Notes under the pieces: model-generated | What the model was told of the DNA's origin: nothing | Database searches by the model: none | Seen by the model: the letters and a program-made list of their open reading frames with translations, nothing else | Assembly: GCA_028277515.1 (NCBI GenBank) | Contig: JANQGC010000359.1 | Span: 1 to 45,257 of the forward strand | Direction of reading: 5' to 3' | Source: Anaerolineae bacterium | GTDB taxonomy: Bacteria > Chloroflexota > Anaerolineae > Promineifilales > Promineifilaceae | DNA: 45,257 nucleotides | Shown: positions 14,985 to 43,747 of the stretch, piece after piece | Layout: each line of letters begins with the position of its first letter | Position numbering within the stretch: the stretch's first letter is position 1 | Program-made: the position numbers and the translations under genes

Positions 14985-15045
14985 AAGTGACAGTCACTCG
15001 AATTTCTGCAAGTTCTCAAAATCATCAACAAGGTGACTGTCACAT
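14985..15045. repeat. REPIN-like paired palindrome (GTGACAGTCAC type), copy 1
   Basis: AAGTGACAGTCACT (14985-14998) and GGTGACTGTCACAT (15032-15045) are inverted copies of one palindromic 11-mer, separated by about 33 bases. It lies between the NusG paralogue and the first glycan gene. Related pairs occur at 17634, 39998 and 43658. Confidence 0.8.
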
Positions 15046-17633: not shown

Positions 17634-17695
17634 AAGTGGCAGTCACTTGGATGGCTATGATCTCTCTGAACATGAATGATAAGTGACTGTCACTT
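17634..17695. repeat. REPIN-like paired palindrome, copy 2
   Basis: AAGTGGCAGTCACTT (17634-17648) and AAGTGACTGTCACTT (17681-17695) are inverted copies with one mismatch and a 32-base spacer. It sits in the 142-base gap between the epimerase and the first flippase. Confidence 0.8.
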
Positions 17696-39997: not shown

Positions 39998-40057
39998 GGG
40001 GACAGTCACTTTATTATCTGTATTGCCGCTTAAAATATTGACCAAAGTGACAGTCTA
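39998..40057. repeat. REPIN-like paired palindrome, GTGACAGTCAC type, degenerate copy
   Basis: GGACAGTCACTTT (40000-40012) and AAAGTGACAGTC (near 40044-40055) are approximate inverted repeats, following the previous element with only a few bases between. The second arm has the central base of the same, not the opposite, orientation, so the arms pair with a mismatch. Confidence 0.65.
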
Positions 40058-40096: not shown

Positions 40097-41188
40097 ATGA
40101 TAAAAAAATTGCAGTTGCCCCACGGTACTCTCGATCTACCGGCCTTTTTGCCCGATGGCACGCGCGGCGTTGTCCGCGCGATTGATGCGGCGGACCTGGA
40201 GAACTGTCACATCCAGGCCATGCAAATGAACGTTTTTCACCTTATGCAGCGCCCTGGTTCATCTACCATTCAAGCCTTGGGTGGATTGCACCAAATGAGC
40301 AGCTGGTCCGGTCCACTGTTCACCGACTCCGGTGGTTTTCAGGTCTATTCTTTGATCCGCCAAAACCCCCGATTTGGCAGCATCAATGATAAGGGGGCAA
40401 CCTTTCAAACGCCTGAATCATCGCGCAAATTTAAGTTAACACCAGAAAAAAGTGTGCAGCTACAAATGGCCTATGGCGCTGATGTGGTCATCTGCTTTGA
40501 CGATTGCACCCATGTGGATGATTCAGAAGCTGAACAGCTTCTTTCCGTGCAAAGAACGATCAATTGGGCCAAGAGGTGTAAAGATGAATACAACCGTTTA
40601 TGCTCTGAAAAACAATTAAGCGATAGCCAAAAGCCACGGTTGATCGCTGTGGTACAAGGTGGCGACTCTTTTGATCTGCGCCGGCGCTGCGCGGAAGCCT
40701 TGCTAGAAATTGGTTTTGATGGTTATGGTTATGGCGGCTGGCCATTAGACAGCCAGGGCCGGCTGCTGGAGGAAGTTCTAAGATTTACCCGGGAGTTGAT
40801 TCCGCGTGAATTTACATTTCATGCGCTGGGCGTCGGGCATCCTGAAAATGTACTCACCTGTGTGAAATTTGGATATGAACTGTTTGACAGTACCATGCCC
40901 ACGCGAGATGCACGCAACGGCCGACTATACAGCTTCACCCGCGCCCCGCAGCGAAAGAACTTCTCCGGCGATGATTGGTTCCAGTTCCTTTATATCAAGG
41001 ACAAAAAACACATCAAAAGTAACACACCAATTTCTGCTTACTGCGATTGCCTATGCTGTTCTCGCTACTCCACCGGCTATCTGCACCATCTATATACACT
41101 CAACGATCATTTGTACGCCCGGCTGGCGACAATGCATAACCTGCGCTTCATGACTTTGCTCATGTCAGCCTTACGAGCAGCCCAATGA
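40097..41188 (+). CDS. tgt: tRNA-guanine transglycosylase family protein (divergent Tgt)
   Basis: Tgt swaps guanine-34 for a queuine precursor in GUN-anticodon tRNAs. The 363-residue protein keeps the general acid-base Asp77 in FTDSGGFQ, the base-recognition FDDC stretch (134-137), VQGG (187-189), the nucleophile Asp264 in ELFDSTMPTRDARNG, and the zinc ligands Cys316, Cys318, Cys321 and His347. It departs from the common bacterial form in the GGLAVGE loop, which reads GYGGWPLDSQ (211-220), and the HALGVGHPENVL segment replaces LMGVGTPED. It may be a paralogue with a changed substrate. Its stop overlaps the next gene (ATGA). Confidence 0.85.
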   Translation: MIKKLQLPHGTLDLPAFLPDGTRGVVRAIDAADLENCHIQAMQMNVFHLMQRPGSSTIQALGGLHQMSSWSGPLFTDSGGFQVYSLIRQNPRFGSINDKGATFQTPESSRKFKLTPEKSVQLQMAYGADVVICFDDCTHVDDSEAEQLLSVQRTINWAKRCKDEYNRLCSEKQLSDSQKPRLIAVVQGGDSFDLRRRCAEALLEIGFDGYGYGGWPLDSQGRLLEEVLRFTRELIPREFTFHALGVGHPENVLTCVKFGYELFDSTMPTRDARNGRLYSFTRAPQRKNFSGDDWFQFLYIKDKKHIKSNTPISAYCDCLCCSRYSTGYLHHLYTLNDHLYARLATMHNLRFMTLLMSALRAAQ

Positions 41189-41988
41189 AGGAAAATGAGT
41201 CACAACTGCAAACGTTAATTGAATTGGTTGCAGCTACAGCCAAGTACAAGCAAATCTCACCCGATCTGATTGAAACCGTCGGCCGGCACGAACTGCAAAT
41301 TCGGCCGACATTGAAAGAAGCCATTAAAGCGACCAAGAGCAAGCTGCACCAGGTGGCGGGCGCCTATCAAGATACAAAGATGAACTACACGCAGGCCCTA
41401 AATGACCTACAGGCAGCCACAGATTCGCCCGGCGCTTTTCGCCAAACATGCCGCGAGATCATGCGCCGCCACGCTTCAACGCGCGAGCGTTTGCCTATCC
41501 TTGATGAGTTTTTCCGGACAACCTTAGCCGGCATTGGACCCGTGCAAACCGTGTTGGATATTGCCTGTGGCTTAAATCCCCTGGCCTATCCCTGGATGCC
41601 CTTTGATGATCATGTAAAATATGTGGCTTATGATATTTACAAAGATGCCGTCGGGTTTATCAATGATTTTATACCGCTTGCCGGCATACAAGGCTGGGCT
41701 GAAGCGCGCGATGTGATCAGCCGGCCACCAAACCAGCCGGTTGACCTGGCGCTCATTCTAAAGTCGCTGCCCTGCCTGGAGCATTTGGGCAAGACGGCCG
41801 TCACCACTTTGTTGGATGCCGTTCAAGCCAGGTGTCTGCTCATCTCCTATCCCGTTTCCAGCTTAGGCGGCCGAAAAAAAGGGATGGTCAACCAATATGA
41901 GGCTCACTTTCAAAACCTGGCTGCCCGCTACCAATGGCGATATGAGCGGTTTGAATTTTCAACCGAACTGGCGTTCTTAATCTATTAA
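41185..41988 (+). CDS. 16S rRNA (guanine-N7) methyltransferase of the ArmA/Rmt family, copy 1
   Basis: The 267-residue protein matches ArmA/RmtB-type enzymes that methylate G1405 at N7 in helix 44 and so block 4,6-disubstituted aminoglycosides. In order: an N-terminal helical domain (residues 1-90), HASTRERL (96-103), the SAM-binding motif LDIACGLNPLA (124-134), Asp150 in YVAYD, DLALILKSLPCLE (187-199), SYPVSSLGGRKKGM (221-234) and STELAFLI at the end. All family motifs appear intact. It overlaps tgt by four bases (ATGA) and is followed by a divergent tandem copy. Producers of aminoglycosides and resistant pathogens carry this family; here it is probably a chromosomal gene. Confidence 0.92.
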   Translation: MKENESQLQTLIELVAATAKYKQISPDLIETVGRHELQIRPTLKEAIKATKSKLHQVAGAYQDTKMNYTQALNDLQAATDSPGAFRQTCREIMRRHASTRERLPILDEFFRTTLAGIGPVQTVLDIACGLNPLAYPWMPFDDHVKYVAYDIYKDAVGFINDFIPLAGIQGWAEARDVISRPPNQPVDLALILKSLPCLEHLGKTAVTTLLDAVQARCLLISYPVSSLGGRKKGMVNQYEAHFQNLAARYQWRYERFEFSTELAFLIY

Positions 41989-41995
41989 CCATGCA

Positions 41996-42047
41996 TGGCA
42001 CTTCGTGGTCTGTTTTCTATACAATTTAAGTAATGTGACAGTCACTT
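41996..42047. repeat. Composite palindrome fragment between the two Rmt-like genes
   Basis: TGGCACTT (41996-42003), then GTGGTCTGTTTT (42005-42016), then GTGACAGTCAC (42035-42045). The first piece is half of the GCCAGGCAC palindrome, the second also occurs at 39904-39915, and the third is one arm of the common palindrome. The partner arm is missing. Confidence 0.6.
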
Positions 42048-42060
42048 GTTAAGAATAAAA

Positions 42061-42882
42061 ATGGCCGAAGAGAAAGAAATCGAGTCCATCGTGACTGCTA
42101 TCAAGCAGTCGAAAAAATATCGCGATACGCATGAAGAGACGATTCGCGAACTGGCCGCGGATGCCCTCAGCCGCCATAAAAAAACCAAAGACGCGACAAA
42201 GGCTGTGCGTAAGCGTTTACATAGCATCATGGCTCCTTACTTGGGCGATCCCGATTATGGCGCAGCGTCAGATGATTTACAGTCCGCCTTCGCCTCCTCT
42301 GATCCCCAGCGGATTAAAAACGTCTGTTATGAGGCGCTTTACAGCCATCTTTCCACACGGGAACGCCTGCCGATCATTGAAGATTTTTACAGCGAGATCT
42401 TTCAAATTACCGGCACTCCCAACCGTTTATTAGATATTGCTTGCGGCCTCAACCCACTGGCATTTCCCTGGATGGATCTGCCCACCACTCTCGAATACCT
42501 AGCCTATGACATCCACGAGCCGCGGGTTCAATTCATCAACCATTACTTTGAACTGCAAGGATTACCTCCCCTGGCACAACTGCAAGATGTCGCCCTGCAT
42601 TTTCCTCAAGAAGTTGGGGATGTGGCATTATTTCTCAAAGAAATGCCGCGCTTTGAACGCAATTACCCGGGAACAGGTCGCGATTTCTTGCAGGCATTGC
42701 GGGTTAAGTTTGTTGTACTTTCTTTTCCTTCGATCAGCATCCACGGCGGCCGAAACTTGACCGGGCGTTATCGTGACTTTTTCGCTAAACTAACGGATGG
42801 CTTCAATTGGCCAATTTCTGAATTATTATTTGACGGCGAACTGGTTTTTGTTGCCGAAAAGCCAGGCGACTTGACAGCATGA
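42061..42882 (+). CDS. ArmA/Rmt-family methyltransferase-like protein, copy 2 (divergent)
   Basis: The 273-residue product aligns with copy 1 in the same register: SKKY near the start (17-20), HLSTRERL (96-103), LDIACGLNPLA (124-134) and Asp150. Later motifs differ: LKEMPRFER replaces LKSLPCLEH, and SFPSISIHGGRNLTGRY replaces the SLGGRxKGM segment. It keeps SAM binding but may have a changed target or reduced activity. The start is put at the ATG at 42061; the frame is open to a TTG at 42046. Its stop overlaps rsmE (ATGA). Confidence 0.82.
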   Translation: MAEEKEIESIVTAIKQSKKYRDTHEETIRELAADALSRHKKTKDATKAVRKRLHSIMAPYLGDPDYGAASDDLQSAFASSDPQRIKNVCYEALYSHLSTRERLPIIEDFYSEIFQITGTPNRLLDIACGLNPLAFPWMDLPTTLEYLAYDIHEPRVQFINHYFELQGLPPLAQLQDVALHFPQEVGDVALFLKEMPRFERNYPGTGRDFLQALRVKFVVLSFPSISIHGGRNLTGRYRDFFAKLTDGFNWPISELLFDGELVFVAEKPGDLTA

Positions 42883-43628
42883 CTCGACATCGCTTTTTTA
42901 TCAAACCCGGACAAATTAAAAAAGGAATCGTGACGATGTCCGGCGAGCAAGCGCGCCAGATTGCCGGTGTTCTACGCTTAAGCGAAGGAGACATGATTCA
43001 CGTCCTGGATAATCAAGGTTGGGGCTACGAATTGAAATTGGAAGCCGTTAAATCGGTGAAAGTCGTAGGACGCGTGCAAAAGAAAGAGCGTGCGAATGGG
43101 GAACCAGCGGTACAGTTAACGCTCTATCAAAGTATGCTTAAGCGAGACAATTTTGAATGGATATTACAAAAAGGAACGGAGTTGGGTGTAGCAAAATTTG
43201 TTCCCATGATCAGCCAGCGGACGATTGTACGCCAGAAAGAAATCAAAAAGAATAAGCGGCTGCGCTGGGAACGAATTATTAAGGAAGCGGCCGAGCAATC
43301 CGAACGCGGCATCATCCCCATCCTTTCCGAGCCAATCTCATTTCAGGAACTCCTATCTACCAACAGGCATGTTGAACTGGCTCTCATACCCTGGGAAAAA
43401 GAAACGGGCAGACCTCTGCGACCAACAATCGCCCTCCACAAAAAGGGTACCTTATCCAGGGTGGGCATGATCATTGGTCCTGAAGGAGGCTTTGCAGAAG
43501 AAGAAATCAGCGCCGCAGAATCGGCCGGGATCATTCCCGTCACCTTAGGACCGCGAATACTGCGCGCAGAAACGGCGGCAATCGTCGCGGCCGGTCTGAT
43601 AATGGATGAACTAGGGGAAATGAACTAA
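42879..43628 (+). CDS. rsmE: 16S rRNA (uracil-1498-N3)-methyltransferase
   Basis: RsmE methylates U1498 of helix 44. The 249-residue protein has the N-terminal PUA-like part (MTRHRFFIKPG) and the SPOUT knot: EWILQKGTELGVAKFVP, IIKEAAEQSERG, MIIGPEGGFAEEE and LGPRILRAETAAI. The length is typical. It is translationally coupled to the second Rmt-like gene. The last six codons and stop are part of an 18-base sequence duplicated after the following REPIN. Confidence 0.94.
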   Translation: MTRHRFFIKPGQIKKGIVTMSGEQARQIAGVLRLSEGDMIHVLDNQGWGYELKLEAVKSVKVVGRVQKKERANGEPAVQLTLYQSMLKRDNFEWILQKGTELGVAKFVPMISQRTIVRQKEIKKNKRLRWERIIKEAAEQSERGIIPILSEPISFQELLSTNRHVELALIPWEKETGRPLRPTIALHKKGTLSRVGMIIGPEGGFAEEEISAAESAGIIPVTLGPRILRAETAAIVAAGLIMDELGEMN

Positions 43629-43747
43629 ATAGTTTATTTTTACATGTGCATAAGACAAAGTGACAGTCACTTTTCAAGAGCATACTTTAGGAAATTTATC
43701 AGTTTAAGTGACTGTCACATGTTTACCAGCTAGGGGAAATGAACTAA
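43611..43747. repeat. 18-bp direct repeats flanking a REPIN-like element
   Basis: CTAGGGGAAATGAACTAA occurs at 43611-43628 (end of rsmE, including its stop) and again at 43730-43747 (just before aroE). Between them lies a ~100-base piece holding the palindrome pair. Removing one repeat and the piece between would restore a tight rsmE-aroE junction. The layout is that of an insertion with target duplication, or of a local duplication around the element. Confidence 0.85.
43658..43720. repeat. REPIN-like paired palindrome, copy 3
   Basis: AAGTGACAGTCACTT (43658-43672) and AAGTGACTGTCACAT (43706-43720) are inverted repeats with a 33-base spacer. This is the cleanest member of the GTGACAGTCAC family here, and it lies between rsmE and aroE. 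Confidence 0.85.

Follow-up and report, generated by a model that had tools for sequence, protein, structure and literature searches.

A divergent Tgt paralogue accompanies FmrO-family 16S rRNA methyltransferases in Chloroflexota and in plasmid rmt cassettes

Introduction

Enzymes of the Arm/Rmt and Sgm types produce 7-methylguanosine at position 1405 of 16S rRNA (m7G1405), and ribosome methylation of this kind makes hospital pathogens resistant to aminoglycosides. One of the mobile genes, rmtG, confers resistance and has been reported to share an operon with rsmH, tgt and a gene spelled rsmL (PMC9311965); another report places it with a putative tRNA ribosyltransferase (PMC3904158). In helix 44, close to G1405, lie the targets of RsmH and RsmI (C1402) and of RsmE (U1498) (PMC12406665). 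In the tRNA-guanine transglycosylase (Tgt) of Zymomonas mobilis, the Leu231/Ala232 peptide flips between the guanine and the preQ1 states, Glu235 holds both, and N7 of guanine is contacted by the Ala232 amide via a water molecule (PMC3660597). Here, we compare these systems with a locus on a 45,257-nucleotide stretch of an Anaerolineae bacterium (Chloroflexota; GCA_028277515.1, contig JANQGC010000359.1), hereafter the window, which encodes a divergent Tgt paralogue (Tgt2), two adjacent FmrO-family methyltransferases (C1 and C2) and an RsmE-family methyltransferase. A first-pass annotation of the window, made from its letters alone, had dealt with C1 and C2. In sampled Chloroflexota, Tgt2 was found only where an FmrO-family gene was also found, and its subfamily is shared with some plasmid rmt cassettes.

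Results

Tgt2 co-occurs with FmrO-family genes

FmrO-family genes were present in 77 of 400 drawn Chloroflexota genomes and in none of 14 control genomes. The Tgt2 signature, a DNA pattern encoding D-G-(Y/F)-G-x-G-G-W-P and searched in the same 400 genomes, was found in 68, i.e., in 68 of the 77 FmrO-positive and in none of the 323 FmrO-negative genomes. In 59 of the 68, the two genes share a strand and are no more than 2 kb apart (49 with Tgt2 first, 10 with the Rmt gene first); in the other nine they are unlinked yet still co-present, either 6-8 kb apart (four) or on another contig (five). Among the nine FmrO-positive genomes without the pattern, two hold an intact Tgt2 in which Ala replaces the Gly of the pattern, three hold pieces, and in four (G138, G206, G304 and G412) no Tgt2 was found. 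As a control, a Tgt-family search of 60 FmrO-negative genomes gave a match in 48 and more than one match in 7 (fragments or other paralogues); the Tgt2 pattern was absent from all 60, including these 7.

A Chloroflexota lineage with reversed order, FmrO first and Tgt2 after (L071, L072, L074, L079, L107, L110-L112 and L114), has Tgt2 pockets such as WPIAPD or WPLTPE. Genome G206 (2.9 Mb, mostly one contig) carries at locus L106 a single, very divergent FmrO gene (116 bits).

Among 28 chosen genomes that carry FmrO, a canonical Tgt (463-538 bits) was found in 26 and a full-length divergent Tgt (299-333 bits) in 24, within 2 kb of an FmrO gene in 21 of the 24. The divergent Tgt is in two pieces in G355, is present as a fragment only in G004, and was not found in G012 and G206. 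Tgt2 is thus an extra enzyme, as 26 of the 28 genomes also hold the canonical one.

Tgt2 is a distinct Tgt subfamily

Tgt2 is a different Tgt subfamily, with the catalytic residues of Tgt and an apparently rebuilt base pocket. The window sequence matches PF01702 and, at 305.3 bits, narrowly misses the TIGR00430 equivalog cut-off of 306.75. Its predicted structure (mean predicted local distance difference test score, pLDDT, of 92.4) matches Z. mobilis Tgt, a fold search that only confirmed the family. Pocket geometry was assigned by alignment, with the numbering checked against the Z. mobilis sequence. The divergent set was defined by locus and not by motif; its 72 distinct sequences of at least 200 residues comprise the window, 3 plasmid sequences, 16 relatives of the rmtG-cassette Tgt and 52 Chloroflexota loci, and were compared with 26 canonical sequences.

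Asp156, Gln203, Gly229-230 and Asp280 are kept in all 72 divergent sequences and Asp102 in 70, the other two being gaps. The zinc site is likewise retained (Cys318, Cys323 and His349 in 72/72, Cys320 in 69/72), and the window Tgt2 keeps the catalytic Asp102 and Asp280 and all zinc ligands. In the pocket, Leu231 of Z. mobilis is replaced by Trp in 71/72 (Phe in the Tgt of rmtE2) and Ala232 by Pro in 72/72, position 235 is never Glu, and Val45 is replaced by Asp in 68/72, with gaps in the remaining four. The canonical set has Leu in 24/26, Ala or Ser in 26/26 and Glu in 25/26 at positions 231, 232 and 235. Because proline has no amide hydrogen, the guanine/preQ1 switch described for Leu231/Ala232 would not be able to work in that way in Tgt2.

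In a Tgt tree of 79 thinned rows, the branch between canonical and divergent sequences has a support of 100 in the Shimodaira-Hasegawa-like approximate likelihood ratio test (SH-aLRT); long branches at this split were flagged by the program. The Tgt sequences of rmtD2, rmtG and rmtE2 group with the divergent ones, within or adjacent to the 16 relatives of the rmtG-cassette Tgt, which were picked from 120 listed and of which 5 bear a clostridial name.

C1 and C2 are FmrO-family paralogues with different catalytic loops

The first-pass annotation had described two adjacent ArmA/Rmt-family genes, and this is not a chance resemblance: both proteins far exceed the cut-off of 27 bits for Pfam FmrO (PF07091), with 190.4 bits for C1 and 157.5 bits for C2, and have 3032 and 659 homologues, respectively, at E <= 0.001. 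The closest relative of both in the PDB is Sgm (3lcu; E 1.6e-42 for C1 and 6.3e-38 for C2). Sgm is also the best PDB match of the predicted C2 structure (mean pLDDT 89.3), where the fold search again only confirmed the family. C1 and C2 are identical at 87 of 263 aligned residues (33%). The motifs named earlier are at the residues given, with STRERL from residue 98, DIACGLNPLA from 125 and Asp at 150 in both copies, if C2 is counted from ATG 42061.

Twenty columns are identical in eight characterised enzymes (Sgm, ArmA, RmtB1, RmtC, RmtD2, RmtE2, RmtF1 and RmtG). C1 keeps 19 of these, the exception being Phe to Tyr222, in line with the earlier statement that it retains what the characterised enzymes share; m7G1405 is therefore its likely product. 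C2 keeps 17, with Leu changed to Phe198, a Gly deleted and a Met changed to Leu. The latter two changes affect the Gly-Met of the catalytic loop SLGGRxKGM, which is invariant in the eight characterised enzymes and is present in C1 (Gly233-Met234) and in 52/52 C1 rows. This count leaves out one long row (L106) and eight rows, mostly of the reversed-order lineage, which keep Gly-Met in 8/8. All 27 C2 rows have the Gly deleted and the Met changed to Leu, a difference that the first-pass annotation had not mentioned for copy 2, and the view of both copies as Rmt-like resistance enzymes is not supported. The lost Met corresponds to RmtC Met245, which we take to be important for catalysis. Asp125, Asp150 and Lys193 are kept in 27/27 C2 rows.

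All named organisms among the best 120 homologues of each copy are Chloroflexota, as are, by their titles, the 31 loci from a scan of named genomes with the C2 alignment. Typed C1 was found in 27 of these 31 C2 genomes; the second FmrO match of G029 is partial and untyped, and G010, G026 and G031 have a single FmrO match each. The tandem pair is real in the window but is the exception elsewhere: of 29 C2 loci with 1200 bases of room, only 4 have C1 at most 300 bp upstream. In the 400-genome draw, typed C2 was found in 10 of the 77 FmrO genomes, each of the 10 with typed C1.

A phylogeny, which the first-pass annotation had suggested as a check, comprised 97 thinned rows of the whole family, i.e., 61 C1-type and 27 C2-type rows (window copies included), eight mobile enzymes and Sgm; it was a quick search with SH-aLRT support only, a midpoint root and no outgroup. 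C2-type rows lie on one side of a branch (SH-aLRT 100), and C2 is a separately conserved paralogue that forms one clade of 27 rows. The window C1 falls within a set of 53 C1-type rows (SH-aLRT 99). The eight mobile enzymes are on one side, apart from C1 and C2 (SH-aLRT 91); long branches make the places of ArmA, RmtC, RmtE2, Sgm and three C1-type rows unsure. By sequence, C1 appears to be a new member of a known family, and C2 and Tgt2 new variants.

The neighbourhood points to helix 44

Of 30 loci that leave at least 600 bases of room after C2, 22 have an RsmE-like frame that starts no more than 300 bp downstream, and an RsmI-like frame follows such an RsmE within 2.5 kb in 14 of 26 C2 loci with 1800 bases. 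RsmI-like frames also stand directly before Tgt2 in L099-L104 (six loci) and L109, and those of L100, L104 and L109, which were typed, exceed the RsmI equivalog cut-off. As the recurrent neighbours RsmE, RsmI and RsmH act at helix 44, the neighbourhood points to the decoding site. The exact 16S string containing G1405, TGTACACACCGCCCGTCA, was found in at least 16 FmrO-positive genomes, the other listed genomes giving no exact copy; the 16S target is thus not generally lost, and nothing more follows from it. The placement of C1 and C2 in an RNA-modification operon stands; both look old and are present in many Chloroflexota metagenome-assembled genomes (MAGs). The description of this operon as housekeeping-like had missed that its Tgt belongs to a different subfamily.

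Some plasmid rmt cassettes carry the same Tgt subfamily

A full-length tgt lies directly upstream of rmtD1, rmtD2 and rmtG, and a shortened one upstream of rmtE2. The window Tgt2 is 44% identical to the Tgt of rmtG, 42% to that of rmtD1 and 49% to the rmtE2 fragment. The rmtG cassette has the order rsmH-tgt-rmtG-truncated rsmI, and an rsmH remnant precedes the tgt of rmtD2 (150.8 bits, just under the model cut-off of 154.3). To the reported rmtG operon we add the rmtD2 rsmH remnant, the common altered pocket and Clostridia as nearest named relatives. Among 120 listed relatives of the rmtG-cassette Tgt, nine name an organism, seven of them Clostridia, Clostridiales, Eubacteriales or Christensenellales and two 'uncultured bacterium'. 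For the clostridial relatives, identity is at most 78%; the two rows with 98-99% may represent the cassette. With these clostridial names, and with the mobile enzymes grouping apart in a quick unrooted tree, Chloroflexota are not supported as the direct reservoir; the first-pass annotation had suggested an ancient environmental one. Among the literature matches listed, most subscription journals being outside the search, no chromosomal source of rmt genes in Chloroflexota or Clostridia was seen.

The short genes that follow rmtD1, rmtE2 and rmtG were considered as pieces of C2 and rejected, as none has an FmrO match; the one after rmtG is a truncated RsmI, and those after rmtD1 and rmtE2 have no confident family.

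Locus layout

The stop of Tgt2 and the start of C1 share 4 bp (ATGA 41185-41188), as do the stop of C2 and the start of RsmE (ATGA 42879-42882) (Table 1). C1 has 267 amino acids and an ATG start. For C2 (273 amino acids) ATG 42061 is the best start, where the list of open reading frames (ORFs) gives TTG 42046. The four-gene stretch had no blastn match to plasmids.

Table 1. Features of the locus in the window.
Feature	Coordinates	Strand	Evidence
Tgt2, Tgt paralogue with Trp-Pro base pocket	40097..41188	+	PF01702 313.7 bits; TIGR00430 305.3 bits; pocket residues; tree; model
C1, FmrO-family 16S rRNA methyltransferase, likely m7G1405	41185..41988	+	PF07091 190.4 bits; 19/20 columns; tree
C2, FmrO-family paralogue without catalytic-loop Gly-Met	42061..42882	+	PF07091 157.5 bits (reading from 42046); 17/20 columns; clade; model
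RsmE-family methyltransferase (16S m3U1498 family)	42879..43628	+	PF04452 172.7 bits; TIGR00046 177.2 bits, cut-off 41
Palindrome GTGACAGTCAC in the 72-bp C1-C2 gap, one of a dispersed set	42035..42045	+	palindrome search

The palindrome GTGACNGTCAC has 10 matches at no more than one mismatch, against 0.52 expected, in intergenic gaps (14987-15043, 17636-17693, 39999-40057, 42035-42045 and 43660-43718). The copies include four pairs about 46-48 bp apart, with one arm of one pair degenerate, and the set looks like a small dispersed element of the REP (repetitive extragenic palindromic) or MITE (miniature inverted-repeat transposable element) kind. A polysaccharide region (15232-36861) contains typed ORFs for a UDP-sugar dehydrogenase, a polysaccharide flippase, several glycosyltransferases, a sulfatase and a DegT aminotransferase.

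Discussion

We propose, with a probability of about 0.7, that Tgt2-C1 and C2-RsmE form an intrinsic modification module for the 16S rRNA decoding centre (helix 44) and not a resistance cassette. As to activities, RNA sites and the order of steps, which we infer from the observed genes, families, residues, co-occurrence and neighbourhoods, C1 would most likely methylate N7 of G1405 on the 30S subunit. C2 would most likely keep binding of S-adenosylmethionine (SAM) and of the 30S subunit and, with its rebuilt catalytic loop, modify another position or assist C1. Tgt2 would be an active base-exchange enzyme, with a pocket in which the guanine/preQ1 switch known from ordinary Tgt is missing, and would share a pathway with the Rmt enzyme, acting after or beside it. 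Aminoglycoside resistance, if any, would be a by-product.

Several observations weigh against this proposal. Arg286 and Arg289, which presumably bind the tRNA anticodon loop, are unchanged in 72/72 Tgt2 sequences. C1 (198.3 bits) and C2 (188.5 bits) both miss the equivalog cut-off of 250 bits of the NCBIfam Rmt model NF000466. No Tgt frame was found within 3 kb of armA, rmtB1, rmtC and rmtF1 (one record each), and methylation therefore does not require Tgt2. The kinship of the sampled genomes inflates the co-occurrence of Tgt2 and FmrO, so that the Fisher p of ~2e-67 overstates their association, and these genomes are largely MAGs that may be incomplete.

The retained arginines would suit a Tgt2 that acts on tRNA and not on rRNA, placing an unusual base (or guanine) at the anticodon guanine and thereby offsetting altered decoding by m7G1405 ribosomes. 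Such a role is possible, if doubtful. Bacterial Tgt requires a UGU loop (PMC10103133) and the context of G1405 is C-G-U, and most m7G1405 enzymes make decoding less accurate in Escherichia coli (PMC12406665); however, the neighbours of Tgt2 are rRNA and not tRNA enzymes, and a canonical Tgt is already present in 26 of the 28 chosen genomes.

The loss of the loop Gly-Met in every C2 row, together with the presence of typed C1 in 27 of 31 C2 genomes and in all 10 C2 genomes of the draw, would also suit a catalytically dead C2 that pairs with C1 in a heterodimer or positions it. We consider this rather unlikely, as Asp125, Asp150 and Lys193 are retained throughout C2 and C1 mostly occurs without C2.

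A bolder version of the proposed module, in which Tgt2 acts on the Rmt product itself, appears improbable. The base-sugar bond of m7G1405 would be weakened, and Tgt2 would remove 7-methylguanine and insert another base; the Trp-Pro pocket should be unable to make the water-mediated amide contact to N7 of unmethylated guanine. To our knowledge, no rRNA base-exchange enzyme has been described, and Tgt2 would, if this were true, be the first; an rRNA-acting Tgt paralogue was not seen among the literature matches listed, most subscription journals being outside the search. This version would fit the Tgt2 signature never being found without FmrO (68/68) but some FmrO genomes (4 of 77) showing no Tgt2, and it would fit 7-methylguanine being a competitive Tgt inhibitor (PMC9299380). 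Against it stand the kept Arg286 and Arg289, and a simple eraser role is unlikely because rmtD and rmtG plasmids carry full-length Tgt2 and rmtG gives resistance. If it were nevertheless true, the clinical rmtD, rmtE and rmtG would be fragments of a two-step methylation/base-exchange pathway.

That C1 and C2 are aminoglycoside self-protection genes with which Tgt2 merely travels is hardly probable: their family membership and the resistance genes among their plasmid relatives would fit, but Tgt2 accompanies FmrO even when unlinked (9/68 genomes), C2 has no loop Gly-Met, and the 17 typed ORFs of the window include polysaccharide, RNA-modification and shikimate genes and no known antibiotic gene.

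The proposed decoding-site module recasts the Arm/Rmt resistance genes, whose chromosomal relatives are embedded in a conserved neighbourhood for decoding-site modification. Because Tgt2 is found in sampled Chloroflexota only where an FmrO methylase is also found, these resistance genes may have originated within an ordinary pathway of ribosome finishing. The mobile rmtD1, rmtD2, rmtE2 and rmtG still carry the Tgt2 partner of this neighbourhood, a subfamily labelled tRNA guanosine(34) transglycosylase in plasmid annotations. The origin of the mobile rmt genes and their native job thus become testable questions.

Comparison with known systems

Compared with bacterial Tgt of the queuosine pathway (tRNA position 34), Tgt2 shares the fold, Asp102, Asp156, Gln203, Asp280 and the zinc ligands. 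It differs in the changes at Leu231, Ala232, Glu235 and Val45, in its separate clade and in being an extra copy beside the canonical Tgt. C1 resembles the Arm/Rmt and Sgm-type m7G1405 enzymes in fold family, SAM motif, the loop SLGGRxKGM and nearly all reference columns; unlike these, it is chromosomal, shares an operon with C2, adjoins Tgt2 and scores under the NF000466 cut-off, and C2 departs from them in its catalytic loop. The RsmE of the window is a family member over the TIGR00046 cut-off with nothing unusual besides its place after C2. The closest counterpart of the whole locus is the rmtG cassette, with those of rmtD1, rmtD2 and rmtE2: an altered-pocket Tgt (Trp-Pro, or Phe-Pro in rmtE2) stands directly before the Rmt gene, and helix-44 methyltransferases lie beside rmtG. 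Unlike the window, the plasmid cassettes have a single Rmt gene, RsmH/RsmI in place of RsmE, and mobile flanks.

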